In this document: positions 3,293 through 61,806 of the stretch, one piece after another | Layout: each line of letters opens with the position of its first letter | How positions within the stretch are numbered: the stretch's first letter is position 1 | DNA from: Phlegmacium glaucopus | Lineage: Eukaryota; Basidiomycota; Agaricomycetes; Agaricales; Cortinariaceae | Direction: 5' to 3' | DNA length: 61,806 bases | Assembly (NCBI GenBank): GCA_015039465.1 | Contig: MU130382.1 | Location: 148,134 to 209,939, forward strand | Notes under the pieces: model-generated | Database searches by the model: none | Told to the model about the DNA's origin: nothing | The model's input: only the letters and a program-made list of their open reading frames with translations | Made by a program: the position numbers and the translations under genes

Positions 3293-5042
3293 ACCTTGGG
3301 AACACTCAGTTTTCCACCCAATTTGTCCAACCTCTAACTCTCACCTGGCCAGCTGAACCTGATTGGCTTTGCACCCAAACCCAAACCCAAACCCAAACCT
3401 GTATATCCCACCTCATCAACAAACTTAACTCCCTTCTCATTTCTACTCCACTCATTTTCATTCAGCCCCAACCCCCACCTAATCAACTGAACACCAGCCC
3501 AAATTCAAGTCTGAACTTAATCATTTTTCATTTATTCTGGTTTCTGGTACTGTACCACTTATGATTTTATTGTTTTCACATGACACCATTTTTATTATTT
3601 TCTCACCATGTCATTTAATTCATATTATGCCATTCCTTTATTTATTTATTTATCTATTTTCTGTAACTCCATTATCTCCATATTAGTGCTTAATACCCCC
3701 TCACCTTAGCAGAGATCCTTATCATTTCCTCTTTGGATCCCCTGCTAGGTGAGTAATATGTAACTAATAACTTGTAATATCATTAACTTTGGATCCTCTG
3801 ATGGTCTGACTAAGTCAGTACCATGATTGCCATGATAATATTATCATCACATGTCTAAGAATACACGGACCATATAATTTTATATTCATGGAAAGCTGCA
3901 AATTAGGAGAGTAAAATGGGGAAAAAACCAAGAGGAGCACATGTAATTTCACACCAAATCATGTAAAATATGAAAATGTTCTCCAAGGTTGCCTGAAGAC
4001 ACACTGAAGGTGTCAGGGGATAACCCTGAGGTATATACCATCTTTACTGTTTATATCTTATCCTCATTTCGACTTGCTTACATACTTCTTTGCTACTGTT
4101 TGGCTACCACCTTATTTCAAGTAGTAGTCAGTAATTACTATCTTATCTCATTATTAACTGGAACCCCCTACTTTGCTAGCTTGTTGCTACTGTTACCTAG
4201 TCTTTATAGACTGTCTACTCTCCCTAGAGTCCCATCTCCTCTTATATGTAGGTTGCCCTAACAGAAGGTGACCTGAGTATAGTGATTGATGTGAGTTTGT
4301 TAAGGGGATAGTAGCTTATAGACAACCTTGAGATAGAGAATATTTCAAGTAAAAGATGATAATATCATTTGTCCGTAATTCTAGAGAGCTTTTATACTAT
4401 GAAGATGTGGCACAGTGGCCTACAGAGTATAATGTGCCACAAGACTAAAATGAACTACAATGAATATGAAGGTCCAAGTACAGAAAGTCCAGATATGGAA
4501 GTGGCCGCAGGCCACATCACTTTGGCTATCATGATGATGGCCTTATTCTATGAGATAGTAAGTAAATGGCAACTAAATGAAAAAGAAAGAAAGAAAGAAA
4601 GAATCATATCATAATCTGTCCTTGCATAGCTGCTCCGCATTCCCCACATGAGTGACCTATGAAGTTCTCAGTTCTCTTAGATTTTATAGGTCTACATATA
4701 ATGGAAAAATTTACTGTAGGTCTATGCAAAACTGGGTTTTTACATGAGCAGAAATGCACTTCCAGTGGATCAGATGCATACTTTATGATACAACATATGA
4801 AATTAGGTATTTACAAAATATTTGGGTCAAACACAGTCATAAAAAATTCTACAATTTGAGAACAAAGAATCTCACCAATTCCAATCCAAACTTTAGCATC
4901 ACTGCATATCAACTAAAAAGACCAAAAAAATAGGAAGAGTGTAAGAACATACTGGAAGGTGCCAAAATAAAATTGAGAAGCAGAATGGAAAATATTTGTC
5001 TGTTGGTAATAATCAGTTGGCCTTGATGAAAAGGTTATCGTC
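3293..5042. other. Non-coding stretch with no supported gene
   Basis: AT-rich DNA. A short (CCCAAA)n run lies near 3372-3398. Small open frames on both strands show no recognisable domains, splice pattern or codon bias. I see nothing else here apart from a weakly hydrophobic frame at 3989-4261 that I do not trust. Confidence 0.5.
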
Positions 5043-6045
5043 CTAATCCAGAAACTATATTTGAGAGCAAATGTAAAGCAATGAAGTAAAAATGCAGTGT
5101 AAGATTGAAAAAAAATGCATACCTCTAAAACCAAAACCTCTCCAAATCTATATCCAAGGCATATCTTAGACAGATGGTGACTGATAATTGATGGTTTGTG
5201 GAAAGGAGGTGGAATCCAGATTCTCTGAAGGTTTTTGGTGTGGAATATGGTGTTGTCAGATATTGCAAGGAAAGATGGCTGAGATGAAAGATGGATGTTC
5301 CCATAAGAATCTTTCCAGGTAAAAACTCCATCAGGAAGTGGTGATTCAACAAGTAATTGAGTATTATTAGAAGATAGAACTGAGGTATGTCCTTTTAGCT
5401 CTGATTCACACTCTTCTGTGGTTCTATTCCAAATCCTGATAGTGTGATGAACAGATACAGTCACAATATGCATACCATCTGGAGAGAAGACAGCTGATCT
5501 GACCCAGGATGAATGTCCTTTCAGCTTTGCTTCACACTCCCCTGTGGCTGTATTCCAGATTTGTGCAGTGTGATCATCAGATGCAGTCACAATATGCATA
5601 CCATCAGGAGAGAAGACAGCAGATATAACCCAGTCTGTATGTCCATTCAGCTCATTTACACACTCTCCTGTGGCTGTATTCCATATCCTTGCAGTGTGAT
5701 CATAAGATGCAGACACAATATGTGCACCATCTGGAGAGAAGACAGCAGAATTGACTGTCTTTGCATGTCCTTTCAGCTCTAGTTCACACTCTCCTGTTGC
5801 TGTATTCCAGATCAGTGCAGTGTGATCATCAGATGCAGTCACAATATGCATACCATCAGGAGAGAAGATAGCAGAATTAACCATCTTTGAATGTCCTTTC
5901 AGTTCTACTTCACAATCTCCTGTGGCTGTATTCCAGATCCATGCAATGTGATCATCAGATGTTGTCACAATATGCATACCATCAGGAGAGAAGACAGCAG
6001 ATAGGACACAATCAGAATACCCTTTCAGGAGGTCTTTGCTGTGAT
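5043..6045 (-). pseudogene. 3' part of the NACHT-WD40 gene: last five WD repeats and C-terminal cap
   Basis: The frame reads leftwards from the inner edge of the inserted element and contains five 42-residue WD40 repeats with the core AVFSPDGMHIVTASDDHT...IWNTATGEC. A non-repeat cap follows (LLVESPLPDGVFTWKDSYG... to RIWIPPPFHKP and ICLGYRFGEVLVLE), the usual C-terminus of agaricomycete NACHT-WD40 proteins. I place a 68-bp intron at 5055-5122 (GTATGC...ATATAG); the last exon adds FLD and a stop at 5043-5045. This half is separated from the NACHT part by a 2.16-kb insertion, so it is probably not translated with it. It has no start codon of its own that makes sense. Confidence 0.8.
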
Positions 6046-6424
6046 CCACCAGATCTGATCAGATCTGATCAGAATTGGTCAGATCTGATCAGATTCCGGT
6101 CAGAATTTTTACAAGCCCAAATGGCAGTAATAGAGCCAATTTTTCTGACCAGATTCTGATCAGATCTGATCAGAAATACCAGATCTGATCAGATCTAATC
6201 AGATTTAATTCTGACCAATTTCTGAGCAGAATCTGACCATTTCCGAGCAGAATCTGGTCAGATTCCGAGCAGAATTAAGTGAGATCAGCAAATGAACCAC
6301 TTGAATTTACTAGAAAAATAATATAATTATGGTAATATGTCAAGTAGCACTATATTGAGATTAGATGGCAATGACCTTGTTGCCATCAAAATCGTGTATT
6401 TTGTTCAGTGCGAGGGGTGTGCAA

Positions 6425-6695
6425 GTAGCAGGCAGTAGTAGCAGCAACAGGCAGTAGCAACAACAACAGGCAACAACAGTAACAACAGGCAACAACAACA
6501 GGCAACAACAACAGGCAACAGCAGTAGCAACAGGCAACAGCAGTAGCAACAAACAGCAGTAGCAACAACAAACAGCAACAGGTAACAACAGTAACAACAG
6601 GTAACAGCAACAGGCAACAACAGTAGCAACAGGCAACAACAGTAGTAGCAAACAACAGTAGCAACAACAAACAGCAACAACAACACCGAACACCA
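6425..6695. repeat. CAACAG/CAG microsatellite
   Basis: About 270 bp of CAGCAA, CAACAA and CAGTAG units. Open frames through it encode Gln/Asn or Cys/Leu runs and are not credible genes. Confidence 0.85.
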
Positions 6696-6726
6696 AACAG
6701 TAGCAAGCTTTTGATTAATTTTTTTG

Positions 6727-7240
6727 GGGGGACCACTTTCCCCCCCACCACTACCACACAGCTCCAACTCCGTACCATCATCACCCCTAGACCACCATTA
6801 ATCATTCCATCTTAATTTTTATTTTATTTTTGTTTGTTTTTGGGGGAGCTCTCCCCCCCCATCGGCAGTGGCGGCAGCAGGCAGCACAACATGCAGCAAC
6901 ATTCGGCCACCCACAGCAAACAGCAGCAGTGTAACCAGCAAACAGCACTATGTCCAGCACACAGCAACAGCACGCACAGCATGCAACATGTACCGGATTA
7001 TGTTGTACAATCATCAGTTAATTGTATTTTACTTCATTTTTTTATGGGGGGGACCACTCCCCCCCAATGGCAACGTGCAGCAGTAGCAGCATCACAGCAT
7101 GTAACAACACCACCACAGCATGCAACAACAACAACGAGCGATAGCAACAGCATACAGCATGTACTGATAACATTCAGCAATCATTACTTAATTCTATCTT
7201 ATTTTATTTTTTATGGGGGGGAGTGGTCCCCCCCAATGGC
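6727..7240. repeat. Repeat unit with four G7/C7 hairpins
   Basis: Four copies of a module: a T-rich lead (TTATTTTTTTATG), a run of 6-7 G, a 6-bp spacer (ACCACT or AGTGGT), a run of 7-8 C, then AATGGCAAC and CAG-rich sequence. They occur near 6727, 6842, 7046 and 7216. Each G-run pairs with its C-run into a very stable stem. Confidence 0.75.
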
Positions 7241-7376
7241 AACAATGTACCGACAGCAGCAACACGACGGTGACAGCAAGCAACGGCAATAAACAACGGC
7301 AATAAACAACGACAACAACACATCACCCATAATCGTATATTACCCCCAGTTATTTTATTAGCTGAATGGAAAAATA

Positions 7377-7409
7377 CTGGTGTCTGCTACGACACGTAGC
7401 AGACACCAG
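7377..7409. repeat. Perfect 15-bp inverted repeat with 3-nt loop
   Basis: CTGGTGTCTGCTACG and its exact inverse are separated by ACA. It sits in the middle of the inserted element and has no flanking low-complexity sequence. Confidence 0.9.
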
Positions 7410-7490
7410 CAGCAATGACCGGCACACTGCCACACTCTCTGTCTCTTGCTTTAGTTGTAATGAACACGTTCAGTGTACACTAGTGCACTA

Positions 7491-7800
7491 GAAAAAAAAA
7501 AAAAAAAAAAAAAAAACGATGACGACAACGGACAACGATGACGACAACGGACAACGACAACGACAACGGACAACGACAACGGACAACGACGACGGACAAC
7601 GACGATGATGACGGACAACGACGATGATGACGGACGGACGACGAACGACGACGGCGATGCCTCCTCGTCGTCGTCCGTTTCGACCACCCACATACACCCG
7701 TTTTACGCCCATCACCCCCGTTTTGCACCCATCACCCCCTTTTTACACCCATCACCCCCGTTTTGCACCCATCACCCCCCCTTTCTACCACCTGCCCATT
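7491..7800. repeat. Poly(A), CGACAA-type repeat and 21-bp tandem repeat
   Basis: About 26 A residues are followed by GACGACAACGGACAACG-type repeats (to ~7650). Then come four or five copies of a 20-21 bp unit, CCCCCGTTTTGCACCCATCA (7690-7795). All are low-complexity. Confidence 0.8.
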
Positions 7801-8206
7801 CATTTCACACCCACTCTACCCACTCATTTTGACCACTTAGTATTTTGATTTCATTTCTCTGATATCAACTAATGTATTTTGTTATTCTAATGTACTAGTA
7901 ACTAATCCCACCTCAAAATGTATAATTAATCCATTTAAATTTAAATTTAAATTAATATGTTAGAAATTTTAGAAAAAATATGAGTTAGTAGGAATTGACT
8001 TATAAGTATTGCAATTCTGATCAGATCTGATCAGAATTGGTCAGAACTACTCAGATCTGCTCAGATCTGCTCAGAATCTGACCAGAATTGGTCAGAACTG
8101 CTCAGAACTGCTCAGATTCTGAGCGGTTCTGGTCAGATTCTGATCAGATCTGATCAGATCTGAGTAGTTCTGACCAATTCTGATCAGATCTGATCAGATC
8201 TGGTGG

Positions 8207-11200
8207 GGGACAGAAAAGTACTGCCTTTCAGCTCTGCTTCAAACTCTCCTATGGCTGTTTTCCAGATCTGTGCAGTGTAATCATCAGATGCAGTCACAAT
8301 ATGCATACCATCTGGAGAGAAGACAGCTGATCTGACCCAGTCTGAATGTCCTTTCAGCTCTGCTTCACACTCTCCTGTGGCTGCATTCCAAATCCGTGCA
8401 GTGTGATCATCAGATGCAGACACAATATGTGTACCATCTGGAGAGAAAACAGCAGAATTGAGCTTCTTTGAATGTCCTTTCAGCTCTACTTCACACTCTC
8501 CTGTTGCTGTACTCCATATCCGTGCAGTGCAATCAGTAGATGCAGACACAATATGCATACCGTCTGGAGAAAAGACAGCAGAATTGACCATATTTGAATG
8601 TCCTTGCAGCTCTGCTTCACACTCTCCTGTTGCTTTATTCCAGATCCATAGAGTGTGATTATCAGATGCAGTCACAATATGCATACCATCAGGAGAGAAG
8701 ACAGCAGATCTGACCCAGGATGGATCTTGTTTTAGCTTTGCTTCACATTTCCCTGTGGCTGTGTTCCAGATATGTGCAGTGCAATCAGAAGATGCAGATA
8801 AAATATGCATACCATCAGGGGAGAAGACAGCAGATATAACACAGTCTGAATGTCCTTTTAGCTCATTTACACACTCTCCTGTGGCTGTATTCCAGATACA
8901 CACAGTGTGATCATCAGATGCAGTCACAATATGCATACCATCAGGAGAGAAGACAGCAGATCCAACCCAGGATGAATGTCCTTTTAGCTTTGCTTTACAT
9001 TCTCCTGTGGCTGTATTCCAGATCTGTGCAGTGTGATCATAAGATGCAGACACAATATGCATACCATCAGGAGAGAAGACAGCAGAAAAGACAGAGTCTG
9101 AATGTCCTTTCAGCTCTGCTTCACACTCCCCTGTGGCTGTTTTCCAGATCCTGACAATGTGATCATGGCATGCAGACACAATATGCCTACCATCAGGAGA
9201 GAAAACACCAGAATTGACAATATTTGAATGTCTCAGAACTGCTTCTGAAAGGCTCCATGCCTTTCTCCTTCCCATGCAGAGCTTCCATTGACAGTCCACT
9301 CTACTTCCATATGTTTTCCAGATATCTGAATTTTCTGGCAGCCAAGCCAATGCTGATGGACATCCCTCAAGGCTGTTACTTCTAATGAAATCAAAATTCT
9401 CTTTCAAAAACCGTTGAGCATCAATCACTATTGCTGAATGTTTTTGCATCTAATTTCTGTCATAAGTGCAATTTGTTCACAGCAACAGGACCACTTACAT
9501 TTTCTAGTTTATATAATGCATGCATTGCAGTTTCCAACTTTCCTAAGATACTCAAACAATCCACCCATCGCAAAAGATGTGTTTGAAAAAATTGCTTCAA
9601 CTTATCAGATCCACCTTTATTGTCTGCATAGGTAAAGTGAAAGGCCCAGCTATCACAAGCATATGCAAGTGATTCAGAAATTTCTTCATATTTCCTTTCC
9701 ACCAAGTAGGAAACTTTTTTTTTACCTGACCATTCTGTATCCATTAATGATAGACACTGAAGTGCTAGGGATTTATGTGCATCACAGGGGTCAAGATAGT
9801 GCTTTGAGGAAAGAATCTCATTACTGAGGAAATCATGGAAGGAGGCATGGAATGTTGAGATGGGTACATTATGGTCTGCAGATGGAATATATATCAAGGA
9901 ATGAAGAGGAGAAAGGGCAGCCTCAGTGTGTTCTATAGGTATTTGCATCAAAGCACTGATGGCAGGGATAGAAAGAGGATTGTAAGCATATACAACAGCT
10001 GTAAGAACCATCTGTATATCCAATTTCTCCCCACTATTTGCAGAGCCATAGGCAGCATCCAAAATTCTTTCATAAAGGATATCTAATGGATGGGTCAGAC
10101 CAGATGTTGTCTCCAATGCAGAATTGACAACATCTGAAAGACGCCTAGGCATGCCAAGGCTACCTCTCTGAGCAATATATTTGCACACAGTTGCTGCATA
10201 AATGAACAAAGTACCAGACATATTGACAAGCCTGTCAAGTTCAGCCTGAGGAGGCCAGTCATGTCTATTATGCTTAATTTGATCTCCAAGCAAGCAAGCT
10301 TTGATATAAAGCTCAATATCAGCCCTAACTACCTCCTTTTCAACCTCATGAAGGATGAAATTAGAATGACCCCAAGAATGATCAAAAGTCTCCTTGAGCA
10401 CTATCTCTGGACGACTAGTGATGAAGAACTTGACTGGAAGAGATTTACTATGCTTCAAGATCACAGAGAGCAACTCAGCCACCAGGGACTGGTTGGAGCA
10501 CTCATCCAGAGCATCAAGAACAATGACTGGGACATCTACTACTTCTCTGGTCTCCCTGTATGCCTCAGTGAGTGGTTTAACAATGAAGTTCAGGAATTGA
10601 TCCCTAATCCTCCAAGATGAGCAGTCAGGATTGGCTTCCACCACATCCAGGATGAATTGTGACAGGAAAGGAAGATACTTGACCAACTGCACCAACTGAA
10701 GAGTGATGGTGGGAATGATGCAATGAACATCACTGGTATCAACCCTGAGGTGAGAAGAGAAGAATGTACCACCAAGGGAATCCTTTTCACGGAGGATTTC
10801 ACTGAATGTGTAAGCAATTGTCGTTTTGCCAGTTCCAGCCATCCCATTGAGCCAGTATACCTTCGTGGTCGTATTATCGTTTGCCCACACTTGGAGCGCG
10901 TCAAGGATCGCCTTGCGAGTGTTCTTCGTACATGCGTTACGTGGAGCAGGGGATTCTGCATTATATGCAGCGAATTGAGCACGTGGAAGGAGTTTCTCAG
11001 ATAATGCAATCTATGAACTAGCTTTTAGCGAAGACCATATCATTACACTCCAAAGATCATACACTCACTAAGATTCGAGACCTCGATTGTCCATTTCCAT
11101 CAGCTTTTGATACATGCTGTATCTGACAAGATGATACAACTCTCAGTACACCGATCGGCTCTTACGCAGATAGAATTATGCTTACACTGTTGGCCATGTT

Positions 11201-32822: not shown

Positions 32823-34990
32823 ATGCTATTTTACCCTCTAAGGTTGGTGACAGAAAGTGCCGAGTCTGACCAGTGTGACCCCCCATCACCTGGAGCTCGA
32901 GATCATTGGCTATTACCCTCCAGCATTGGTGTTGCCAGGCGAAAAAGGCCAAGATGCGCCGCATTTCTTCATGAAGTAGAAGGCATTCCTCCTGCCAACG
33001 ATGGGCCCGAGCACGAGCTCGGCACCACTCAATACGAAGTGCTAAAATGATGATAAGTCAAAGTCATCAACGACAGGCCAGACATGCACCTGTTTGGGCT
33101 TCCTCATCGGCATCAGCCCCCATACCTAGTACTTTCCAGATCCAACTCAACTTCTTTCAGCCTTTGCTTCCAGAATCATCCAAGGTCATTCCATCAAGAT
33201 CAGCATCCTCAAGTTCACGTAAGACATTGCACCATGAAGTGTTAACAAGCGGCGTTGAAAGAACTTTCAAGGCCTTCCAAATCTTGTGGTATTTTCCTGC
33301 CAATGCAGCAGGAGGCTTCCCACCTCCTTCAAAGTTGACACAAGCTCGAAGGGGAGCAATGGCAGGTATGTAGAGATGTTGAGTCTCGATCCAAGCCTCA
33401 ATTTTTCGTCTCAAGGAGTTGGATCCTTCCACAACCTTTGCCTGCTGTAAACTTGTTGAATGTGGACCCAGCTCGGCGGCGTCTTGTACATGGCGGCGCC
33501 TGGACAAGTAAGAAACTATAACTAAGAGGATAAGTAGCAACCACTCACTGAAGATCCTCCAGTTTGAGGCCCTGGTAAATTAGCATGCTAGCCGAGATGT
33601 CACTATGTAATGCGAGCTGGGATCCAGACACAATCCTGTCAGCATCCTCTTCTGCCAGTTGAAGTTGAATGTCAGCCTCAGAAATCACTAAACGACAACA
33701 TGGACAGATGAATGACAAATATATAACCCAGAACGAACCTTTTTGTGAATCCAAGAAAGGGTTGGGCCTGAGATCAATCTTGCTCCCATGTCTGGCAGAG
33801 TTTGGTCCACACCTTAGTAGCTGATGTAGGTAGAGCGGCATTAAATTCAATAAAAGCTTCAACGTGTTCCTGACGTTTGACAATGGCCTCCTTGGATTTT
33901 TGGATAAAAGTCTCAGCTAAAAACAGGGTGTCAAATTGCAATGATACTGAAGAAGTTGCAACATACCCATCTTAGTAATTTTATTCCAGTTGTAATCCCT
34001 GAAATGATCATCAAGAGTATCGCGGCAAGATCCGGGTCCCATTTCTTTTGTGCTGGAAGCCACAGCATTGGCCGCAGCCCATCCCCGTTCTGGAGCCTCA
34101 CCATCAGTTCGGCCTACCCCAGGAACCAGATTGAACGAATAGTCAAGTTGGCATTTTGCAATGTGAGCAGCGAGGTGAAACTTTGGAACTAAAAAAGTAA
34201 GGTCCAAGTCCAACGAAGAAACAGCATTGGGGGATGTTTTTTAAGCTAGACAAGAAGAAGTAATCCATGTTGACGTATCTGGGATGAACATTAGTTAAAA
34301 CGGCTATAACATAAGTAGCACCACGTACCGTTCTCCTTTTTGCAAGTCCCCAACAGCATTTGGCTGCTTCATGTCGTGACGACTGCATTCAGTTGTCCCC
34401 AGTCCACTAGCTGCCATTCCCTTCCCACCACGCATACTGGCCGATTTGATGGCATCATGGTTGTTGCAAGAGCTCTTGTCATCGGGAACTTTGTTGTTGT
34501 ACTCCAGGAGATATTTCTTAAACTTCGTCTCTTCAACAACATAAGCATAGCCATGATTCAGGCTAGGATCCCGTTCATCGCTAGAGACATTCATACATTG
34601 GAGTCGGAAATTAGTGTCTAAGCCAACAAATAGGGAATATAGCCACCTTAAAAGAAGAAATATGTTAGGTGGTATATGGTTCAAACTTAGGAAACATACG
34701 GCTTTGGCTGATCCTTCCAGTTACTGGGCAAGTTCATCCCTGGGATGGGACAGGCTGGGCAGAGCACTGCGCATTCACCTTCCTGGGTACCCTTAACTCC
34801 TGTTGGGTCATGTCCTCGACCGAATCTTTTCAAGAGGCGGACATGTCGCCACTCCCACATGATACGGAGGAATGTGTGGTAACAATCCTAACAATTATTC
34901 AGTAAATTCAGTAAAAAGTCCAATGTCAGGTAAATTCTTACCGGAGGAGGTGTAAGGAAAGTAATTCCTTTACTGTTGAACAATGGACCC
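32823..34990 (-). pseudogene. KDZ-family transposase, decayed, N-terminus missing here
   Basis: Reading leftwards, the exons encode LTPPP|DCYHTFLRIMWEWRH, KRFGRGHDPTGV, ECAVLCPACPIPGMNLPSNW|LYSLFVGLDTNFRL, SASMRGGKGMAASGLG, CSRHDMKQPNAVGDLQKGER|YVNMDYFFLSSL, FLVPKFHLAAHIAKCQ, GRTDGEAPERGWAAAN, MGPGSCRDTLDDHFRDYNW and, near 33040-32930, LRIEWCRARARAHRWQEE. This is the order typical of KDZ transposases of agaricomycetes. Clear introns are 34941-34888, 34699-34647 and 34328-34279. Between SSLKN and FLVPKFHL the segment that in the family carries the SYDIACQW catalytic Asp is missing, so the copy cannot be active. No complete N-terminal Cys cluster lies on this strand; one is found in the complement-only block to the right. 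Confidence 0.85.
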
Positions 34991-35170
34991 ATAAAATATT
35001 ACCGGAATGGGATAGGGCCGCCAGACGGCCCAACGAAACACGTTGTATTTAGTGTATGCCACACACAATTTCTCTCATTGTCCTATTTCACTTAAATACT
35101 GGACTTTTGTACCGTAATAAATCAGTTGATTACTCCCCCCTCAATTTCATTCTCAAAGGATTCATATCAC
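34990..35170 (+). mobile_element. LTR-like promoter segment
   Basis: Contains GGGCCG/CGGCCC (short hairpin near 35015), CACTTAAATACTGGACTTTT near 35090, GTACC, AATAAATCAGTTGATTAC and a C-run. This TATA/poly(A) arrangement resembles fungal LTRs. The same arrangement (TATAAATACTG, CTTTTGTACC, a C-run) occurs near 61490 when that region is read as complement, so the two are probably related copies. Confidence 0.45.
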
Positions 35171-35234
35171 GAGTCCTATTTCTACTACTACAAATAAAAA
35201 TACAAGTAAGTTTCTCGGAGTAACGAAGGTCCGT

Positions 35235-35841
35235 TACCGAGGAGGCTTGTACTATCTAAACCTTAACCATCCGAAATCCCCGGCTTGAACACGAAGCGGA
35301 CAGTGTCCCTTCCTCTCGCATTAAATATAATACCTATTTCTACGGTAGTACAAACTACTCCATCACAGAGGTGAAGTTCCTGTATTTTCCGTTCTCCTTG
35401 CCAGTGACTGATAGAACTCAAATGCTGAAATCTTCGAGGTAAACGACAGCATTTGAAAGGTCTCTAGAACCTCAAATGTAGCGGCAGTCTTAGGTTCTAT
35501 CACAGTTGCTGGGAAAAGTTGAGAGCGGAGGAGTTGGATGGTTTTCGGGAGGGATTGCTGGCAGCCACAATAGCTTAGTCCAACTTGGTGAATCCCGTTA
35601 GCGGCAACAACGGTAAAATCATCATTGCCAAGAATTACGCGGACTTCTGTAAATACTACCGCTTTGACTGTCCCGGCGAGTTATGTTTTGTTATTAGGAG
35701 CGACTTGCGTTACGGGTAGAGATGCCTTCCCGAGCGTAACTAAAACTGCTTACGCTGACACTTCCATCTAAGCCATCCTTGCTACTACCACTTCAGGCAG
35801 TAATGTGACTGTTGACGGGGATGGCACTTATATCGATGATC
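35235..35841. other. Hidden ORFs in the complement-only block: MAPPNM- protein and Cys-rich protein
   Basis: In complement-only reading, ATG at 35235 opens a frame beginning MAPPNMIDLELVGFRGRT. A second frame from about 35380 contains YLEFTTLEAPFAVVNFPEIL. A third runs to a TAG at 35839-35841 and contains NAPEDIYDGETDRAAQY, LAERNAHLYGRARIDF and the Cys-rich CDCEGRFGRNDDGEVRHYTD followed by NCPY. They look like exons of one gag-like or uncharacterised agaricomycete gene, but the exact junctions were not resolved. None of these reads in the normal six frames. Confidence 0.6.
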
Positions 35842-36844
35842 AGTACATAGTAAAAGTTTTAGAGGTTATTATAAAAACAAGTTTTAGACAGTTAAGTTTT
35901 AGACTATGTACTTAAATGTACAGAGTATTTTATAAGACTTGAACAGTGACAGCTGGTAGCGTATTGTATTGTTGAGAAGATAGGTGGCTTGTTGGAACGT
36001 CTGTAGGAACTGTTAATACAGAAGGTCTACCATGAGAAGTGTATATGGGGGGTTTCACATCTAAAGCAAGACTATAAACATTTATTCGAAAACCTCAAAC
36101 GACTCCAATTGTTGTACCAATACTTAATCCAGGAATAGTAACAGCTGGTCCTTGACCCGTGACTAGACTAGTCGTATATACTGCCCTCGTAAACGACACT
36201 AAGCTAAGTTAGCAGACGGGTGTGACAGACGTGCAAGGTAGGTCCTTCATTAGGGTCAGAGACAACGACTAACGTGAAAACCTCCTTAGAAGTGACCGCG
36301 TCGTAATGACTGGTTGGTTTAATCGATCTGGATATAGTCTCATTACTACTAAATGTATACTTATAAGAACCTTAGGGAGAACGCGGTGACGAATAACTAA
36401 CTTCAGAACAAAGATGTTGTTGGAACAATAAACAGACTTATCTTATACTTACGGACTTGGATGTAAAGTATTACGGAAAACGAAAATCGAGTTAATCGAA
36501 GACGGAAAAGAAGTCTACACACCATTTACGTTCCGGCTGGCCCTGGGTACTTTCAGTTTCAATCTCGAATTCATCATTTGTTGACGGACGTCAAGGCGCC
36601 AATGTCACGTGGCAGACTGGAAATAAGGGCTCAGTATATACCCTACTTTATATGTATAACTATGTTTCGATCTTAAAAACTCTCAAGTTATCAGGATAAA
36701 TGTTAAGTTAAATCAGTCCATTAGAGAACAATGGCCGTTAGAGAAAGAGATTTGAATTACTAAAACCTCTATAGGTACGTTTTTTATAAAAGTTTGCCGC
36801 TAGTTCGAGATTAAAACGTATACCCTCTGAAGTGTTCTGAAGTG

Positions 36845-37631
36845 TACCGAAGTTCGTTTGCGACACCCGCGGGCTAACTTTACCTGCTTATATATGGACT
36901 GTTAGCTAGACAAGGTGTTGGTTTGGTAGTTCTTGAAGTGTGCACGATGTTCTCCTTACGTACGCGACAGGTAAGAATGAACCTAGCAAATGGAAGGGAG
37001 GGTCATTTAAGAGAGTGTTGTAGTTCCGGTGTATCGTAGGACTTGTTATTAGTCCTACTGTTACGTTTAATACTCCTACTTATAAAGGTACTTCTAAAGC
37101 TCCCGTTGTCAGAACTCGAACGCCCCGATCAGTTAGATCGTTGTGTCGGTTGAAGGCGTGTCTTAGGTGTCTTTTGGTTCTTTACTGCCTGAGTTCGGTA
37201 CTCAAAAGAAGAAGGAGAAGAAGTTAAAGAATACGCTAAAAAAAAATGGAGTCCTGGTAGGAGAAGATACGACCTAAGGTCTTTAGCTGTTGATACAACT
37301 CCTCTACAATTCTAATCTTCCGGCGTGACTACGGCGAGAGGTCTGATGGACACGACTCTAGTTGACAAGGAGTGAACGGGGATGGAAGGCAACGTACCTG
37401 ACAGAGTTAGATGTTGACAAGACACAGTTGACAACAAACCGACCAGTAAATAGAGAGGGTAAGGTAGCCTAGGTCCATCCAAAAAACTGGAAAACCTCCT
37501 ACCAATATATAAGATTGTTTGTCTATCTTCACCTTGCCGTCAATGAAACAATTCCACGGTGATTTCCTGAATCCCGAAGCATAGGTCAACCCTGTACGAC
37601 TGTTCTGTACGGGAAATGGACTTTCCTGGAA
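36845..37631. other. Hidden KDZ transposase N-terminus in the complement-only block
   Basis: In complement-only, left-to-right reading, ATG at 36845 opens 113 codons (MASSKRC...; acidic EDEYFHEDFEGNSLEL) to a TGA at 37184. After an acceptor TTTTTACCTCAG, an exon at 37254-37475 reads DHPLLCWIPEIDNYVEEML, then a Cys/His cluster (TTCAEINCSSLAPTFRCMDC, LFCVNCC, GH, PFHRIQ) and the donor GTAGGT. The next exon from 37528 reads WNGSYFVKVPLKDLGLRIQL, GHADKTCPLP. The Cys cluster, W-N-G and LGL-IQLGH order is the N-terminal signature of KDZ transposases. The gene runs into the N gap. Confidence 0.8.
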
Positions 37632-37784
37632 NNNNNNNNNNNNNNNNNNNNNNNNNNNNNNNNNNNNNNNNNNNNNNNNNNNNNNNNNNNNNNNNNNNNN
37701 NNNNNNNNNNNNNNNNNNNNNNNNNNNNNNNNNNNNNNNNNNNNNNNNNNNNNNNNNNNNNNNNNNNNNNNNNNNNNNNNNNNN
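37632..37784. other. Assembly gap of 153 N
   Basis: Run of N. It is the right border of the complement-only block. Confidence 0.99.
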
Positions 37785-38780: not shown

Positions 38781-39174
38781 ATTTTTCCTGATGCCATGCT
38801 CACCTAAACAAGAATAATTGATCACATTATGAAGACAAAAATTTAAAAAGATGGAACTAACTCTCTGTGAGGGATAAACCTGGCTCGGGGCCCAGCTGGA
38901 CGCTCACGCCAAGCTGGCGGAAGGCATGGACGACGACTGCAAACATTTGTGTTACTGTGTTGATGTGAGTGGAGTCGGAGGTACTCATGATTGCATGGTA
39001 ATTACAGTGAATTTTAAGATAACCGTCCAAGTCCTTTTAGTTGTTTTAACAAGGTTTTGGAACTATACAGTTTATCGGAAATCACTGGGAACCTGTTTTG
39101 AAGCTTGAGAAATCATCCCTGACGCCTGAACAAGCTTAAGCTCATCATAGGTAACCATCAAACACGTTATTCTA

Positions 39175-40308
39175 ATGCCAGCACCATCCTGGGCAACACC
39201 CATTCAGAAGGAATTCCTTTTGGCTCGGCAAATTGATTTCAGCCAAGCTCAAGCCAACAAAAAACTCAGTACATTTTGGGTTGGACTCTACCGCAATTTT
39301 TTTGTGAGATGGCCTGACCAAGCATCCAAATCAGTGGACCCCACCGTCGAAGGTCAGCAGCCAGAAAAAAAGAAACAAAAGAAGAAGAATAAAAGCTCTG
39401 ATTTGCTGGTCGTCGAGCTGTCTCACGACAAGTGGGTTTCTATGTGAAAAAATGTTTGTTTTTACTTTTGATTGAGAAACTTAATCTGATGCTTTTTTTA
39501 GAATATCTATAATTGGTATAACAATCACGGTGTCAATAAAGGATGAAGGGTCAGGGAAAGTCAGCACGGTAAAAATCAGCATTGCGTCATGCGCTTCACG
39601 ACTTCCCACCAAACTACATCTATACTCAAAGCGATATTACGAGACACAAGTTAAGGCTGCAGTTGATGCCGAGATTGGTGATCGGAACGTGGACTCAAAG
39701 AAATGGATTGTAATCATCAACAAACACCTAGCCGAAATTTACGGGAATGAATCAGATGAGATCAAAGCAGAGATTTGTGGGGCACTGGAGGAGGAGAGAA
39801 TGGCAAAGGAGGTGGCAAAGGAAGCAGATAGATCAATCGTCAATGCTAATGATTTGACCATGTCCAAGATCGGCTTGTAAGTCATTTCGGTTTCTCTGAT
39901 TTCATCCTGATTAAACATCGCTATGTAGGGCACAAGCTAGCTTGCATGAAATTATACAAGACTTCTTCGAGGCTATGGAAAAGCGTACCACATGGGCTTT
40001 TACAGTGCTAGGGGGAGGACGCGATCCCACTAAGGAAGGAGCAATCCGAACGATTGGTATACATGTTGGAAAAAACAGTTATGGACAGACGTTCGCAAAG
40101 GCAAACCCTAACTATCGTGAATCCGTTTTGGCTCCGTTCTCAACTTTTTTGCATTCGGTGTTTTGTAAGTAATGCGATCATGGGTCACTAAATATCATTA
40201 ATCTCTTCTTCAGCGGAGTCAGAGCGCCATAAATTCACCAACGATAAAGCCAATGATACTGCTGTTCTCCCACACCTTGCAGTCAAATATACCCGAGTTA
40301 GTCTGTGA
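39175..40308 (+). CDS. Uncharacterised agaricomycete protein, four exons
   Basis: Exons 39175-39431, 39502-39876, 39929-40164 and 40214-40308 keep frame across GTGGGT...TTTTTTTAG, GTAAGT...TATGTAG and GTAAGT...CTTCAG. The product (~320 residues) has PSWATPIQKEFLLARQIDF near the start, WVGLYRNFFVRWP, a Lys-rich basic stretch, LYSKRYYETQVKAAVDAEI, then an acidic helical region (ESDEIKAEICGALEEERMAK) and a C-terminal part with WAFTVLGGGRDP. This pattern is common in lineage-expanded agaricomycete proteins of unknown function often found near transposons. No catalytic motif is visible. The start codon is the first ATG of the frame; an upstream exon is possible. The 43-bp minisatellite begins directly downstream. 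Confidence 0.6.
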
Positions 40309-50820: not shown

Positions 50821-50947
50821 TTTTCCCACGCTCTTAAAGCAAAGGAAAACTCAAAGGCAGTACCAGAAACTAAGTAGTAGCCTATCTATCCTCAAATACC
50901 CTCCAAAAGCCCATCCTTAAAGACGAGCCCCGCACTTTAAAAACTTG

Positions 50948-53945
50948 ATGTCGGGTAAAGCCGCACAAAGAAAAGTGAAGCAACCAGTGACACGTAATAG
51001 AAGCACCCTCGCGAATGCGAAGGGCAACGGTGACACACACTCTCGTACTCCCTCACCCCTAGTCGACAACTCTCAGAATGGTATAATCGATAATGCAGCA
51101 GCGGGCAGGAGGTTCTTGGAAAAGAGGCTCCTCTTCATGCCGGAAGGACACCCAGTGACCACAGCGACCATGGCAGCCACCCTGCATCAAATTGCGGAAC
51201 TCGACAAAATACCGTTAGAGGCAGCGCAAGCAATACGAGCAGCCGCTTACCTGTTGGACAAGATGGACGAGGGAGTAATAGCCGCAACGGCTAGGGATGC
51301 GGTGAATGACCAATTAGCATATATGAACGACGAGCTAAAAACTATGACAGGGCACTTCCTTGCCACAATGGAAACTGGGTTGGAAAAACAGCTAGCTACA
51401 GTAACCGAGGCTACAAAAGGATTCGTCGCCACCTCAGCCAGATCATATAAGGACGCCCTCCTCAAGAGCAATCAAACCCCGGTTGACACTGACCCCAGGA
51501 TTCTGGCAAGGGAAGGCATCAAAGCCCGGCAGTTCTTACTGGACTTCCCGGTCGACTTGGAAACGAGGGAACTCAGTCAGGCTGAGGTCGTCAAGAGATT
51601 CAACGAAGCTGTTGTTGGGGCCGGAGGCAGCGCTTCAATGCATAGGATACGAACGGTAGAGAGGCTAGCAAACAAGGGTTTGCTGGGCGAGTTCCTCACC
51701 GATGAAGGGGCCAAATGGTTTGCCCAGGAAGCTAACTTTGACAAATTCGTTACAGCTCTTGGCACCCTAGGTCGAGGTGCCTGTGTCAAGAAAAGGAACC
51801 ACCCTATCATCGCCTACTACGTTCCTCTGCATCTCAACACGGTGATATGATTTAAATCTGCATAAGCATGGTTTTTGCAATTTTTATCTATTATTTCAGC
51901 ATAAATATTAATTAATGCACCAATAACTGGTTAATACAACTGATAATAAACAAGGGAATCAGAGTTGTCTACCCTACAACTGCTGATTAGACCTATTACT
52001 GTGTGACTTAAATGCATATAGTTAATAAGTGTGGTCAATAGACTATCATTTGTTACACTACAAATTGCATGTCTGGATTAAAACCAATAAATCCATGAAT
52101 ATCCTTATAGACTTGGCACAGGAAAAGTTAAATAAACAATATTGGGTTAGCAAATGTCATGGGGTGTGATTTTGGAGCAACAGAATATTATTAATAAATA
52201 TTCAGGGGAAGTTGGTGCCCTAGCAACAGTGGAAGCAGAATAACCAAGATAGTGGAACCATGTGATTGTGTGGGAATCATGATGATTAAGGATAGGGGGA
52301 GTGCTGAACAATCATAAAGATTGTTTCCAGGCACAATAGGCACAGTTACCACCAAGAGGGGTGGAAACTACCTAAAATTAGGAACATGGGGCTAAAAATA
52401 GAACAACCCCTATGTTTCCAGGAACAATGAGTGCACATGGTGCCAGAACCAAAGTAAGGGTACCAGGAACCAGTATATCTATTTTTGGACATTATCTATT
52501 TTTAAATATCTCAAATGTATAAAATACCTCCCAGGGTTTGTAAATAGTCAGAAAATTGGATTCTTTCTTTCCCCCCCTCATTTGCAACCTAGTACAGCTC
52601 ACTGTCTTAGACATTGAGCAAGAACACTTGTCTTTGAGTAGTGGACTTGAAAATAAATCAGTTTCTCAGAGTTGTTTGACTTGTTGCAATAATTGTTGAA
52701 TTGTTGTAAAAGTTGTTGTTGTGTTAAAGTCATAGCAGAAGCAAGAGGGCTTCTTGTGTATGCAATTGTGTTAAAGTCATAGCAGAAGTTTGAGTCTTCT
52801 TGTGTATGCAATTGTGTTGAAGTTGTAACAAAGTCTTGGACTTTTGTGTACACAAATTGTAAATCAATCAGTAAAGTCTTAGGAATTCTTTGACTGATTG
52901 TTGGTGCAAGCCATAAATTGCAAAACCACTTTACAAGTTTGATCATCCTTTAATTGATCCAAATTATTGTTGTTGTTGTGTGTGTTTAGTTGAAGTGAAT
53001 TCAAAATATTGGAAAGGTTATACTTTCTAGAAAACCCAACTTGCATTATTAAGATTGTATAAAGTATTGATTGAGTGATTGTTTTGAGTAGAGATTTATA
53101 ATCTTGAAAATACACCTTTTCTCAACAACCTCTGTGCAGTTACATCAACGGCCAACCCAGCCCACGTCGCAGAAATTGAGGAGGTAAACGGAATGCGGGA
53201 AGGAGACCTACTCAAGATTCGGTGGGCAAAGCCGCCGACTAGACGGAGGGCCAGCCAGACGTGTGGTCACCTCGTTCTGACTTTCTCCAACCCAGATGCG
53301 GCCAACAGAGCGAAAGCGGGTGGCCTTGTCATTTGCAGCAAGCGAGTCTCAGCGGCCAAATACAAAAAGGAACCTATACGATGTCTGAAATGCCAAGGCT
53401 GGAATCATGTTGCAGCAGAATGCGTCAAGAAATCCGATGTATGCGGTACCTGCGGCAAGGAGGGGCACAGAACTAGCGACTGCATGGAACCCGACAAACA
53501 GCACTGCGTCTCCTGTGGAATCGATGGTCACCCAAGTTGGGCGAGGAGCTGCCCTACGTTCACAAGGAAATGCAGAGAGTTCGACAAGAAACACCCAGAA
53601 AACGGCCTTCCCTTCTACCCTTCGCAAGAACCTTGGACGTGGGCCACTGAACCGCCTAGGAAGGAATCCTGGGTCGTACGGGACTCAGGAGGGCAACCTC
53701 CCCCTCCTAGCGGGTCGGGCGCGCAGCACCTCAGGCAGCAGCAGCTAAGGTTTGAAAAGGCTCCGGCCGCGGGAGGAAGACCTCAGCAGAACGGAGACAC
53801 CACTCAGGTTCCCAGTACCCAGAGTGACGCTTTTCAAGACTGGCCTGTGCCCATAGGCTCCCAGATAAGCGATGTGTTATCCTATATGTCTCCAACAGAG
53901 GCTCCTATGTTCGCTGACCAAAACATCCCCTCCTTTTTCTCATGA
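50948..53945 (+). pseudogene. LINE ORF1 (gag-like), interrupted
   Basis: First part 50948-51842 starts MSGKAAQRKVKQ, is helical and Ala/Glu-rich, and ends with YYVPLHLNT. The second part resumes after the insert with ANPAHVAEIEEVNGM and carries three Cys/His zinc-knuckle groups (CLKCQGWNHVAAEC, CGTCGKEGHRTSDC, CVSCGIDGHPSWARSC), then a Pro/Gln-rich tail to a stop at 53943-53945. Joining the parts over the shared ACGG keeps the frame. ORF1 proteins bind the element RNA. As it stands the first part would add only a few residues before stopping at 51850. Confidence 0.85.
51843..53145. mobile_element. LTR-like insertion A (in LINE ORF1)
   Basis: About 1.3 kb, starting TGATATGATTTAAATCTGC and ending CTCTGTGCAGTTACAT. 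It contains a TATA-like GTATAAAATACC near 52518, then GAAAATAAATCAGTTTC, an order typical of an LTR promoter and poly(A) site. Flanks ACACGG/CAACGG are an imperfect target duplication. No protein is encoded. Confidence 0.75.
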
Positions 53946-56900
53946 ATAGAGTCCAGGAACCACCATTGAACAGATTGCGGATATTTCAACTTAACTTAAA
54001 CAAGTCGCAGAAAGCTCATCTCGACCTAATAAACGGACCCTTGGGTAACAACTGGGACATCCTACTAATACAAGAACCTTATATTACAGCGCTAGGCCAT
54101 ATTAGAACACCAAACGGGTTCTCAAGTGTATTCCCCCAAGACAGATTTCTCGAAAATTCGGAACAAGTACGCTCAGTAATATGGGTAAACAGCAAGCTCT
54201 CCTCGAACTCGTGGAGGGCCCTCAACATCTCAGGCAACAACGACATCGTGGCAATTCAGATCAAGACGCAAGACGGTCGACTTACAGTTTTCAGCATCTA
54301 CAACAATTGCAAGCACTCAAGAACACTCTCACGGCTAAAACGATTCATACAAGAGGAGCGACAGCAACTACTAGGAAGCGACGGAGACATGATGTTATGG
54401 GGAGGGGACTTCAATCGGCACCACCCTCTGTGGGATAACGACGAGGATGACCGATTGTTCACGCCTCAAGCTTTGAGAGACTCGGAGGCTCTGATCCACC
54501 TGGTGGCCGACGAGGGTATGGTAATGGCGCTACCAAAGGGGTTATCAACATTGAAGCACATGGTAACGAACCGCTTCACGAGGCCGGACAACGTTTGGTG
54601 TAGTGAAGGCCTGCTAAACCGCATCAGGCGATGCGATGTTGATGGCTTTTTGCAACCCCCATGCACTGATCATTTCCCAATAGTCACCGTTATTGACATC
54701 CCTCAAGAGCGGACGGAAGCAGTACCCTCCTTTAACTTTAGGATGGCAGACTGGGAAGCATTCCGGAAACGTCTCCAAGAAAGCATAACAGAAATCGCAC
54801 TGCCCACGCACCTGGACTCGGAGCATGGGCTACAACGGGCAGCAACAGACCTCACTCTAATCCTACAGCAAACGATACGGGAGAAGATCAAGTTGAACAA
54901 GCCCTGTCCGTACTCTAAGAGATGGTGGAACGGCGAACTGCAACAGCTTAAACGAAGAGTCAATCAGCTAAGTAGGCTTTGTTTGAAGCAGAGAGCAGTG
55001 CCTAACCACCCTTGCCACGAGGAACGTAAGGCCCTGACCAAGGAATACGGTGACGCCATCATCAAGGCGAAGAGGCAACACTGGACCAACTTCCTAGAAG
55101 AAGCGGCCGATCATGATCTTTGGACAGCGAATGGCTATCTCAGGGAACCAGTAGGTGACGGCGGAAAATCCCACATACCAACACTTAAGGTTAGAGACGA
55201 CAACGGCACCACTAGGGAGGTTAGCGCAAACGAAGATAAGGCGAGAGTCCTCACCTCACTTTTCTTCCCGCCCAAACCCGCTTTCTTGTCGGTCCCAGAG
55301 AATCAGGAATACCCAACCCCACTGCCAGACCCGCCCCCCATCTCTGAGGCTCAGTTACACCAGCAGATAAACAGGCTCTCCCCGTTCAAAGCGTGCGGTC
55401 CGGATGGTATACTGAATGTGGTCCTCCAGAAGACAAGCGACATAATAGGGGACCACCTCCTGCAGATATATCAAGGAGCGATCAGGTTAGGAAAGTATGT
55501 GGACTCCTGGAAGGAATTCACGACCATCGTTCTGCGAAAGCCTGGGAAGCCCGACTATGAGGTCCCCAAAGCCCATAGACCTATCGCCTTGCTATGCACA
55601 ATGGGTAAGGTATTCACGGCCATCCTGGCCGAAAACATTATGCGTATGGTGGAGAAAGGCCGACTACTACCCGATAACCATTATGGGGGTAGGCCGGGCA
55701 GAATGACTACGGATGCGGTTCACGTCCTGGTCGACAAAATCAAGAGGGCCTGGAGGAAAAGCAGGGTAGTTTCGATCCTGTTTCTCGACATGGAAAGCGC
55801 TTTCCCGAATGCGGTTACGGATCGACTGCTGCATAATCTGCGTAAAAGGAGAATACCAGAGGTGTACGTCAGGCTAATACAGCAGATCCTGGAGGGTAGG
55901 CGAACCAGGTTGAAGTTTGACGACTTCATATCAGAGGTCACTCAGATAAATAACGGCATAGGCCAAGGCGACCCCATCTCCATGATTCTCTACATACTGT
56001 ATAACGCTGATCTACTTGACATAGCCCTAGGACCAGAAGAGGAATTGCTAGGGTTCGTAGATGACGCTATGGTAATGGCAGAAGGTAGAACCTTCCAGGA
56101 AACGGTAGAGACCATTGTGGATTTCATGGAGCGTGATGGGGGGGGCTTCACTTGGTCCTCTCTCCACAACTCCAGGTTCGAAATTGACAAACTGGCTGTA
56201 ACTCACTTTACAAGAAAACAGGTAGTCGACCCAGCGAACCAAGGGAGACGCCTACCTCTGCCACATCCTGAGCTTCGACTTAGGGGGAAACTCATCAAGG
56301 TCGAGCAAAGCTACAAATACCTAGGGATCCATATCGACAGCCAGCTTAGGTGGTCAGTACAGATGTATAAGGTGATCGCCAAGGCCACGGCTTGGGTACT
56401 CCTATACCGTCGGCTCACCAGACCGGCATCGGGTATGCTACCAAAATTCATGAGGCAGCTTTACCTCTCCATAGCAGTCCCCAAGATGACGTACGGTCTC
56501 GATGTTTGGTACACGCCCCCCCACAAAGAGGTAGGTAAAAAAAGGAACTCAGGCTCGGTGAGAGCTCTGAGGGAATTCGAAAAGCTTCAACGAATAGCCA
56601 CGTTGGCGATAACAGGTGCTTTGCGCTCCTCCCCAACGGATTTACTAGACGCGCACTCAGGTTTGCTGCCCATGGAGCTTCTACTCAAGAAAATCTGCTT
56701 CAGGTCATTGGTACGGCTCAGCACCATGCCGCCGTTCAACCCAGTCAGCAAACAGCTAGCTTGTTACCACAGCCGCCCGGCCAAGACCTACGCCACGAAC
56801 ACTCAAAATCTGCTTAAAATATTCAATCTGAACCCCATCCGCATAGAGAAGATCACCCCAATGACCCGGTTCTCAACACAACCACCACAGATCACAACAC

Positions 56901-59281
56901 TTATCCCGAAAAGCAAAGAGGAATCGGTTGCACTAGAAAGGAATGACACCTCGGATATACGTTGATATGATTTAAATCTGCATAAGCATGGTTTTTGCAA
57001 TTTTTATCTATTATTTCAGCATAAATATTAATTAATGCACCAATAACTGGCTAATACAACTGATAATAGACAAGGGAATCAGAGTTGTCTACCCTACAAC
57101 TGCTGATTAGACCTATTACTGTGTGACTTAAATGCATATAGTTAATAAGTGTGGTCAATAGACTATCATTTGTTACACTACAAATTGCATGTCTGGATTA
57201 AAACCAATAAATCCATGAATATCCTTATAGACTTGGCACAGGAAAAGTTAAATAAACAATATTGGGTTAGCAAATGTCATGGGGTGTGATTTTGGAGCAA
57301 CAGAATATTATTAATAAATATTCAGGGGAAGTTGGTGCCCTAGCAACAGTGGAAGCAGAATAACCAAGATAGTGGAACCATGTGATTGTGTGGGAATCAT
57401 GATGATTAAGGATAGGGGGAGTGCTGAACAATCATAAAGATTGTTTCCAGGCACAATAGGCACAGTTCCCACCAAGAGGGGTGGAAACTACCTAAAATTA
57501 GGAACATGGGGCTAAAAATAGAACAACCCCTATGTTTCCAGGAACAATGAGTGCACATGGTGCCAGAACCAAAGTAAGGGTACCAGGAACCAGTATATCT
57601 ATTTTTGGACATTATCTATTTTTAAATATCTCAAATGTATAAAATACCTCCCAGGGTTTGTAAATAGTCAGAAAATTGGATTCTTTCTTTCCCCCCCTCA
57701 TTTGCAACCTAGTACAGCTCACTGTCTTAGACATTGAGCAAGAACACTTGTCTTTGAGTAGTGGACTTGAAAATAAATCAGTTTCTCAGAGTTGTTTGAC
57801 TTGTTGCAATAATTGTTGAATTGTTGTAAAAGTTGTTGTTGTGTTAAAGTCATAGCAGAAGCAAGAGGGCTTCTTGTGTATGCAATTGTGTTGAAGTCAT
57901 AGCAGAAGTTTGAGTCTTCTTGTGTATGCAATTGTGTTGAAGTTGTAACAAAGTCTTGGACTTTTGTGTACACAAATTGTAAATCAATCAGTAAAGTCTT
58001 AGGAATTCTTTGACTGATTGTTGGTGCAAGCCATAAATTGCAAAACCACTTTAAAAGTTTGATCATCCTTCAATTGATCCAAATTATTATTGTTAGTGTG
58101 TGTACTAGTTGAAGTGAAATTCAAAATCTTGGAAAGGTTATACTTTCTAGAAAACCCAACTTGAATAATAACATTGTATAAAATTATTACAAAGTATTGA
58201 TTGAATTATTGTTTTGAGTAGATGATAATCTAAAATCTCGAAAATACACATTTTCTCAACAACCTCTGTGCAGTTACATATACGTCTCTATGCGGATGGC
58301 TCAACGTCGGATGGATATGTAGGGGCAGCAGCGGTCCTATACCAAGTGCAACCAGCGCAAGACAGTCAGATTCAAGTTCTACGCTACAGATTGGGCAGGG
58401 ATAGTGAGTATTCGACGAAGGATGCCGAGGCAGTGGGGTGCATCCTGGCGCTTTGGCTCCTCAAAGGAGTAAACCAGCTGAGTAGTCGCACAGTATCCTT
58501 GTATACAGATAGTCAGGCGTTCGTACAGTCAATCGGTGCTCGGAGAGCGAAGACAGGGTCCTACCTCACTGATGAGTTCCTCAAGATCGCAGAGCAGGTC
58601 GTGGGGAGATCACCGCCAGAGCCCGTCGTCAACAGAGTCAAGGTCAGATGGATAGCAGCCCACAGCAATGTAATTGGCAACAAACGAGCGGATAACGAGG
58701 CAAAATCAGCAGCCAACGGATCTATCTCGCCGGCCGCTCGCCTCCCAAAGTTACTCAGGCGACGGTTACCATTGAACGCAGATTTAATAAAGGAGCAGAT
58801 GGCGTTCGCTCTCAGGAGAGAATGGAAGGAGAAGTGGGAAGCGTCACCAAGGAAGGCTAGGATGGAGGTGATAGACCCGAGTTTTCCTTACGACAGATTC
58901 AGAACGTTGCAGAGCGAGCTCACTCGGGCCCAGTGCAGCCTACTCTTTCAAATATGGTCAAATCACCTACCACTCAGAGCATATCTTCATTGTATCGGAA
59001 AGGCTGACAGCAAATTTTGTGCCAGTTGCAGCGATCTCAGACATCTTGACGTAGCGGAGACGGTTACGCACTTTTTGTTCGAATGCCCTAGCTACGACTA
59101 TGAAAGGCACATCTTGGACGCCAAGTTGGGATGCCAATCGAGGAACCTTAGAGCTATCTTGTCCAGTAAGGACAACATGAAGGAGTTGCTCAGTTATGTG
59201 GGACAGACGAGAAGGTTACAAACATCACTAGGTGACGTGTCCAGATTTCGCATAGCCTTAGACGATCTTCAGGATGGATAA
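53942..59281 (+). pseudogene. LINE ORF2 (endonuclease, reverse transcriptase, RNase H), interrupted
   Basis: The start codon overlaps the ORF1 stop as ATGA. Segment 53942-56962: endonuclease with FQLNLNKSQ, LLIQEPY, WGGDFNRHHPLWD and CTDHFPI; RT with KACGPDGI, HRPIALL, LFLDMESAFPNA, GIGQGDPIS and the catalytic box FVDDA. Segment 58286-59281: RNase H with LYADGSTSDGYVG, KDAEAVG, LYTDSQAF and GNKRADNEAK, then a CASC...HFLFEC zinc-like motif. Removing insert B and one ATACGT joins TSDI to RLYADGS in frame. With the insert in place, translation stops at 56963-56965 and RNase H is lost. The frame is otherwise intact over about 1,330 codons, so the LINE was young when hit. Confidence 0.9.
56963..58279. 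mobile_element. LTR-like insertion B (in LINE ORF2), TSD ATACGT
   Basis: Nearly identical to insertion A over its whole length and in the same orientation. Flanked by ATACGT at 56957-56962 and 58280-58285. Small differences from A (for example GTTGAAGTC against GTTAAAGTC, and an altered ~58090-58230 segment) show they are separate copies. Confidence 0.85.
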
Positions 59282-60899: not shown

Positions 60900-61806
60900 G
60901 GAAGGTAGCAACAACACCGATACCTGGGTGTTCAGAAGAGGAGTCGATAGATAGAACGGTATGGAGCGAGGACCTAGCGTGAGTCAGGGGATAGGAGTGA
61001 GTAGATGGAGAATAGAATAGTAAGTGACGGTTTTGGTAGTAAGTGCGCCATGGACTTCGGAAGGGTGGGAGAAATACTGTTAAATCCTTCAGGTCCTCCT
61101 AGTGCTGATTCGTCCTTAACGTCTACTTAGTCGTCGTCTCCTAATAAGAGCGTCACACAGTTCACAATAGTTCCGACGCGCTGTACCCTAGTACCCGTTC
61201 ATCACAAAAGAGCCCTTGTTCCGACGCGGAAAGTTCACAACTGAGTCCTGGAAAGTATAAAAACTGTACTGGTGTGCGGATACCTCAACTATATAAAAAC
61301 GATAACCTGATACATGTGACGGAAGAGAAGAAAAGAGAGCGTGAAACTGTGAAATGTCTAAAAAAATAACAAGGAAGAAGAAAAAGAACAAGAAAAGAAG
61401 AGCGTCGACAGGAGAGAAGTAGTAAGAAGGAAACTGTCGTGCATGAAGAAAGAAAAAATAACAAAATGTATCGGAGTAGGAATCCCATATTTATGACGAG
61501 AAAACATGGTCCTATCCATCAAGTCAAGTTAAGTAAGAATGGGGGGTTGTTAGTAGTAGAGTCACCTTAAGGTCACTTAAGGAAGGAGTTCAAGCGAAAA
61601 AGACGGAAATTGACAGTTAGATAGGGGTGACAGTTAATGATATCAGAACGACTTCTGAGGGAGAATAAGAAGGAGTAGGAGAAGGAATTGGGGAGACTCA
61701 AGCGAAAAAGTCAGGAATTGACAGGTGGGAGTCAGTGGGGAGTATAAGTAGGAGTAGGAGGAGATGAGAGAGAATTGGTTCACACGAATGATCAGAGACC
61801 AATATA
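60900..61806. other. Second block written as complement without reversal
   Basis: In complement-only, left-to-right reading there is a 71-codon frame starting MDPQVFSSAIYLAIPRSW near 60930, an exon-like GIADESAAEDYSRSVSSVIK near 61120-61200, and an LTR-type promoter with TATAAATACTG at 61487-61497, CTTTTGTACC and a C-run. The last matches the LTR-like sequence that reads normally at 35090. As written the block is purine-rich and contains nothing recognisable. The left edge lies somewhere in 60872-60930; the right edge is outside the window. Confidence 0.65.

Follow-up and report, generated by a model that had tools for sequence, protein, structure and literature searches.

A letter-reversed block in a KDZ transposase gene points to a probable gap-filling fault in a genome assembly

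Introduction

Can a stretch of assembled DNA encode a protein when it is complemented without being reversed, and if so, how did it come to be written that way? The question was raised by the initial annotation of the window (the whole stretch of DNA analyzed, 61,806 nucleotides), which placed such a block at 35175..37631, read part of a KDZ transposase gene in its complement, and thought an assembly or gap-filling error the most likely cause. We conclude with high confidence that the block, redrawn at 35628-37631, is a part of a KDZ gene reversed as a string of letters, likely by a gap filler that flipped contig-end extensions from one strand without complementing them.

Results

Extent and nature of the block

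We compared the locus with two relatives, on contigs C138 (locus L018) and C241 (locus L019). Against these, 2,004 bp of the window (35628-37631) proved to be string reversed: the order of the letters runs backwards, and the complement step is absent. The coding strand of this block is its plain complement, read from left to right. The features at the locus are the following.

34951..35367, no strand assigned: 417-bp TG...CA repeat resembling a solo long terminal repeat (LTR), written normally, inserted in the KDZ gene
35368..35627, minus strand: continuation of the KDZ exon, as written
35628..37631, minus strand: string-reversed block, N-terminal part of the KDZ transposase gene with the CxC2 cysteine cluster
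37632..37784, no strand: run of 153 N, an assembly gap adjoining the block
38799..40256, plus strand: flank to the right of the gap, collinear as written with C241 (L019 5506-6930)

To the left of the block, the window as written aligned with C138 by BLAST at 98.6% identity (34231-34952) and 99.6% identity (35368-35627). Within the block, it was the complemented sequence that aligned, with C138 at 98.6% identity (37273-37631) and with C241 over 35673-37104 and 37169-37631. Bases 35627 and 37631 are adjacent in both relatives, and un-reversing the block gives a join, 35627|37631, that agrees with C138 at 200 of 200 bases and is 85% identical to C241. No other genome stretch examined gave an alignment across the junction at 35627 as written. 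The block as written likewise had no match in L018 or L019, where reversal or complementation alone did produce one; searched on both strands against the 60.5-Mb genome, it matched itself alone, in agreement with the earlier claim that no normal rearrangement explains it. Because the right flank is collinear with C241, the true order is left flank, letter-reversed block, gap, and right flank.

Of the limits first proposed, the right one stands, at 37631 beside the N gap. The start at 35175 is rejected, since 34951-35627 matches the relatives as written, and the true start is 35628. The extra 453 bases (35175-35627) are normal and comprise most of the 417-bp repeat and part of the KDZ exon.

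The KDZ transposase gene

That the complement-only reading hides a real gene was confirmed. A 116-aa piece of this reading matched C138, in the same genome, with 95% amino acid identity (E = 4.4e-57); the complement-only exon was 82% identical to C241, and the block's own place was absent from the 24 six-frame matches to the piece. Two coding features described earlier were recovered in the complement: the 113-codon ATG frame, inside a 174-codon frame at 36662-37184, and the Cys/His-rich exon, inside 37203-37551. An "independent Cys-rich frame at 35.6-35.8 kb" was not supported; it spans the actual edge of the block and matches no Pfam family.

When the exon pair was un-reversed and spliced, giving a protein that spans the block and its flank, Pfam returned the CxC2 model (PF18803) with an E value of 1.9e-43. 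The KDZ domain (PF18758) was found further on in two frames as written, with E values of 4.1e-19 and 1.4e-28, and the two models together uphold the assignment to KDZ.

34307..34720, minus strand: open frame, as written, covering positions 1-100 of the KDZ domain (PF18758)
33920..34240, minus strand: open frame, as written, covering positions 144-217 of the KDZ domain (PF18758)

Six complement or reverse frames, tested singly against Pfam, gave nothing above the cutoff; the cysteine-cluster model surfaced only once the exon was carried on across the junction. There were 69 related proteins, and the organisms named for them are mushroom-forming fungi, e.g., Amanita, Mycena, and Pleurotus. Judged from its sequence, the gene to which the block and its flank belong is a KDZ transposase gene of the ordinary kind, a member (by PF18803 and PF18758) of the Kyakuja-Dileera-Zisupton (KDZ) group with CxC2/CxC6 clusters; a block in L021, described below, is of the CxC6 type. 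Set against KDZ genes, the window gene shows nothing unusual in itself, apart from the wrong written order.

Inside the C138 KDZ copy lies a 1.2-kb repeat (L018 6045-7229; G000:C138:315544-316728) that is missing from the window copy and has 151 candidates genome-wide. The 417-bp repeat of the window (34951-35367) may be a solo LTR, with TG...CA ends, GAGG flanks (up to 6 bp, GAGGTG, are common to repeat and target), and many copies, a genome search giving 38 matched stretches, i.e., itself and 37 others. Elsewhere in the window, 4913-10890 on the minus strand holds frames of 378, 421, and 476 aa, which we take to be WD40-repeat-like and NACHT-like and perhaps remnants of NACHT-WD40 genes. On the plus strand, 50945-59281 holds frames that we take to resemble zinc-knuckle, RNase H, and endonuclease/reverse-transcriptase sequences, the last in a frame of 1,007 aa; they are perhaps a non-LTR retrotransposon.

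Letter statistics

Orientation was scored from k-mer statistics against their reversal. The block scored -75 nats. Among 1,077 tiles of 2,004 bp, drawn from the window and the genome stretches examined with known reversed blocks masked, the mean was +52 (standard deviation, 25); four tiles fell below 0, the lowest at -4, and none was as low as the block. The wider interval 35175-37631 has a CpG ratio of 0.97 and a GpC ratio of 0.65, versus 0.63 and 0.90 elsewhere; compared with the remainder of the window, the pairs CpG/GpC, TpA/ApT, and CA/TG versus AC/GT are swapped.

In scans of order 3 and order 5, the three segments with the strongest reversed-like signal (in the window, L021, and L022) adjoin N runs, but the next two (in L019 and L040) do not. 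The L040 segment (6393-7306; G000:C106:341393-342306) is reversed-like by 19 nats, but it resembles mini- or microsatellite DNA and so was left uncounted. Used alone, the k-mer test misses short blocks (the one in L028 scored only -1.7 nats and was not called by the two-state scan), and the two-state k-mer scan misplaced the L013 block. About 10.5 of the 279 kb of non-N sequence in the tile-test stretches is reversed, a rate that applies to those stretches and not to the genome as a whole.

Other reversed blocks and their gap edges

We examined 24 genome stretches. Four lie around the window and both relatives, and 20 were placed partly near repeat matches; because of this partial choice they are not a random sample. 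Blocks were sought by complement BLAST of gap edges, together with a comparison of everything against everything.

Window 60907..61806, no strand assigned: second string-reversed block, 900 bp of high-copy repeat at the right end of the window, adjoining the following N run
L022 1948-4233: string-reversed block, by complement BLAST
L013 1894-2608: string-reversed block, by complement BLAST
L019 7915-9593: string-reversed block, by complement BLAST
L028 9614-9836: string-reversed block, by complement BLAST
L021 2673-~3732: reversed block; its reversed reading is a protein of the CxC6 type (PF18721, E = 2.5e-17) with 99% identity to C121
L024 4888-5887: reversed block; its reversed reading is a piece with 95% amino acid identity to C120

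For the KDZ block, 60907-61806, and the blocks in L022, L013, L019, and L028, other loci read across the string-reversed join in every case (6 of 6) and across the join as written in none (0 of 6). Of the 103 six-frame matches to the protein read from the reversed L021 block, none falls at the L021 place itself. Block lengths range from about 223 to 2,286 bp, which is compatible with read overhang without proving it. A 137-aa as-written frame of the reversed block in L022 had no Pfam match and, among 15 candidates, none to a protein at an E value of ≤1, a result uninformative on the origin of the fault.

The stretches contain 14 gap edges, counting repeat copies of one edge in other loci once and leaving out C106 (see below). 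Seven are reversed, six are normal, and one is undecided.

Reversed edges (7): window 37631, window 61806, L013, L021, L022, L024 5887, L028
Normal edges, by as-written matches: window 37785, L018 4693, L029, L033
Normal edges, by k-mers only: window 1, L024 6212
In neither class: L018 710, where a tandem repeat looks reversed by k-mers (-14.5 nats)

Eight blocks end at N runs: the KDZ block, the one at the window end, and those in L013, L021, L022, L024, L028, and C106. C241 is reversed from 213914 to ~216946 (L019 7915 onward, L042, and L043) without an N in the 11.5 kb examined, so the link between blocks and open gaps is not a strict one. This C241 stretch is probably two abutting reversed blocks, the second of which is suggested by k-mers and one 142-bp match; perhaps a gap there was closed or overfilled with reversed extensions. 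As far as they can test it, the joins, the eight blocks at N runs, and the reversed copies on many contigs (below) favor the assembly or gap-filling error first proposed, the C241 stretch without N being an exception. One faulty end per contig, a pattern that the window's two contigs fit, was considered as a candidate rule. Separately, the complement of window 6617-6846 matches L019 91-312 at 68% identity (E ~2e-15), with no N nearby; either of the two may be the reversed one.

Recurrence across the genome

Reversed copies lie on many contigs; the initial annotation had raised the possibility of recurrence. Baits A and B came from known reversed blocks, and the CxC6-KDZ and LTR baits came from normal copies. 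The family A reversed bait (window 60907-61806 as written) gave 74 first-look candidates, versus 825 for a normal bait (another copy, 1,015 bases), and 40 candidates were scored for each. The 40 of 74 scored for the reversed bait gave 40 long matches on 30 contigs, at 91 to 100% identity and with the window included. Family B, with a bait from the L022 block, gave 12 reversed candidates (all scored, 13 matched stretches) versus 151 for the normal bait. For the CxC6-KDZ family there were 11 reversed candidates, all scored and matched at 66 to 99% identity, versus 65 normal ones, and for the LTR family there was 1 reversed candidate versus 35 normal.

Gap adjacency of reversed copies was checked for the window, C148:1948, C148:212612, and C106. 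On C106, picked for its reversed match, a normal match at 214993-215087 and a reversed match at 215174-215496 implied a block ending at 215496. The sequence bore this out (the normal part stops at 215087, and N begins at 215497), the expectation having been noted alongside the retrieval of the sequence.

Discussion

The reversed blocks are a systematic assembly artifact and not a biological feature, because in every known DNA process a reversal of letter order comes with complementation. The block sits in a repeat-rich region and inversions occur often, so one might read it as an inversion of the usual kind, or a strand switch, in a KDZ copy, i.e., as reverse-complemented DNA whose complement frames arose by chance. 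Such DNA would have found its relatives on one strand or the other, but the block as written, on both strands, matches itself alone in the genome and nothing in L018 or L019. The k-mer test treats the two strands alike, and consequently an inversion would pass it; the block fails. We regard an inversion as highly improbable. Less probable still, to the point of being scarcely credible, is a biological process that made letter-reversed DNA, such as the joining or copying of strands in parallel, perhaps at repeats. There are numerous reversed copies, a good many of them in repeated elements, as such a process might leave them; to our knowledge, however, no polymerase or ligase reverses order without complementing, and the N runs at which eight blocks end (7 of the 13 decided edges, plus C106) are not a pattern to be expected of biology.

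A cause other than the assembler deserves more weight, although we consider it unlikely: the reversal could have been introduced downstream, in file conversion, masking, or the preparation of this copy. A script that reversed strings near N runs would leave an identical signature, and some of the N runs could be DNA that was withheld (C148 opens with 1,947 N [G000:C148:1-1947], odd for a scaffold). Yet the unrelated extents of 0.2 to 2.3 kb, the involvement of about half of the edges, and the C241 stretch without N are hard to obtain from a masking script and come naturally from read extensions.

The origin that we prefer is a fault in gap filling. A gap filler would have extended contig ends into gaps, and in about half of the extensions the letters would have been flipped. 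Extensions of ~0.2 to 2.3 kb with residual Ns would fit long-read extension of flanks that stopped short of closing the gap, and the share of edges affected, about half, would fit a strand-dependent fault. Because a minus-strand read that is complemented but unreversed has the same letters as a reversed plus strand, either operation may have been the one omitted. We suspect that the program was PBJelly, on the basis of the likely species and the general methods of a published pipeline. The species is predicted to be Phlegmacium (Cortinarius) glaucopus: a gene on C138 aligns with an NCBI protein from that species over 199 of 202 residues (106 of them at 100% identity, and the first 95 through a likely intron, at 82% of 113 columns), although a second P. 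glaucopus protein reaches at most about 85% in its long exon against the loci examined. According to the text available of the PBJelly paper, flank-extension reads that fail to close a gap are still incorporated, and the gap shrinks (PMC3504050); the text available for the JGI pipeline describes assembly with ALLPATHS-LG and the use of PBJelly for hybrid assemblies, in a paper that includes Cortinarius glaucopus (PMC7550596).

As far as the accessible text on PBJelly and similar programs goes, the blocks resemble known gap-filling misassemblies in that new sequence, of a length that would fit a read overhang, stands where a contig end borders a remaining N gap. The same portion of the PBJelly paper names overfilled and negative gaps as problems; extension with reversed letters is not described there. 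They also resemble inverted-segment misassemblies in that a segment is wrongly oriented between correct flanks, but such segments are reverse-complemented and visible to BLAST, whereas the window block is invisible to it. In the literature searched, including the available text of the gapFinisher paper, we found no report of a fault of this kind.

Affected genes and repeats escape six-frame searches and BLAST, as the window block and L021 demonstrate. Annotation, repeat masking, and read mapping would also lose these stretches, and false frames arise at the joins. An orientation test (k-mers against their reversal) and a reversed-bait search detect blocks even when no reads are at hand, and both could be applied to any assembly; searching beside Ns alone would miss cases such as the C241 stretch. 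If the fault comes from the suspected program, further hybrid genomes already published would have to be checked; their raw data would be intact, and reassembly would be the cure. Whether a long-read gap filler in wide use has a strand bug that reversed the letters in about half of the extensions it added to contig ends, hiding genes and transposons here and perhaps in many hybrid assemblies from the same pipeline, is in our estimation an evenly balanced question. If so, the hidden share of some repeat families would, on the present counts, be several percent.
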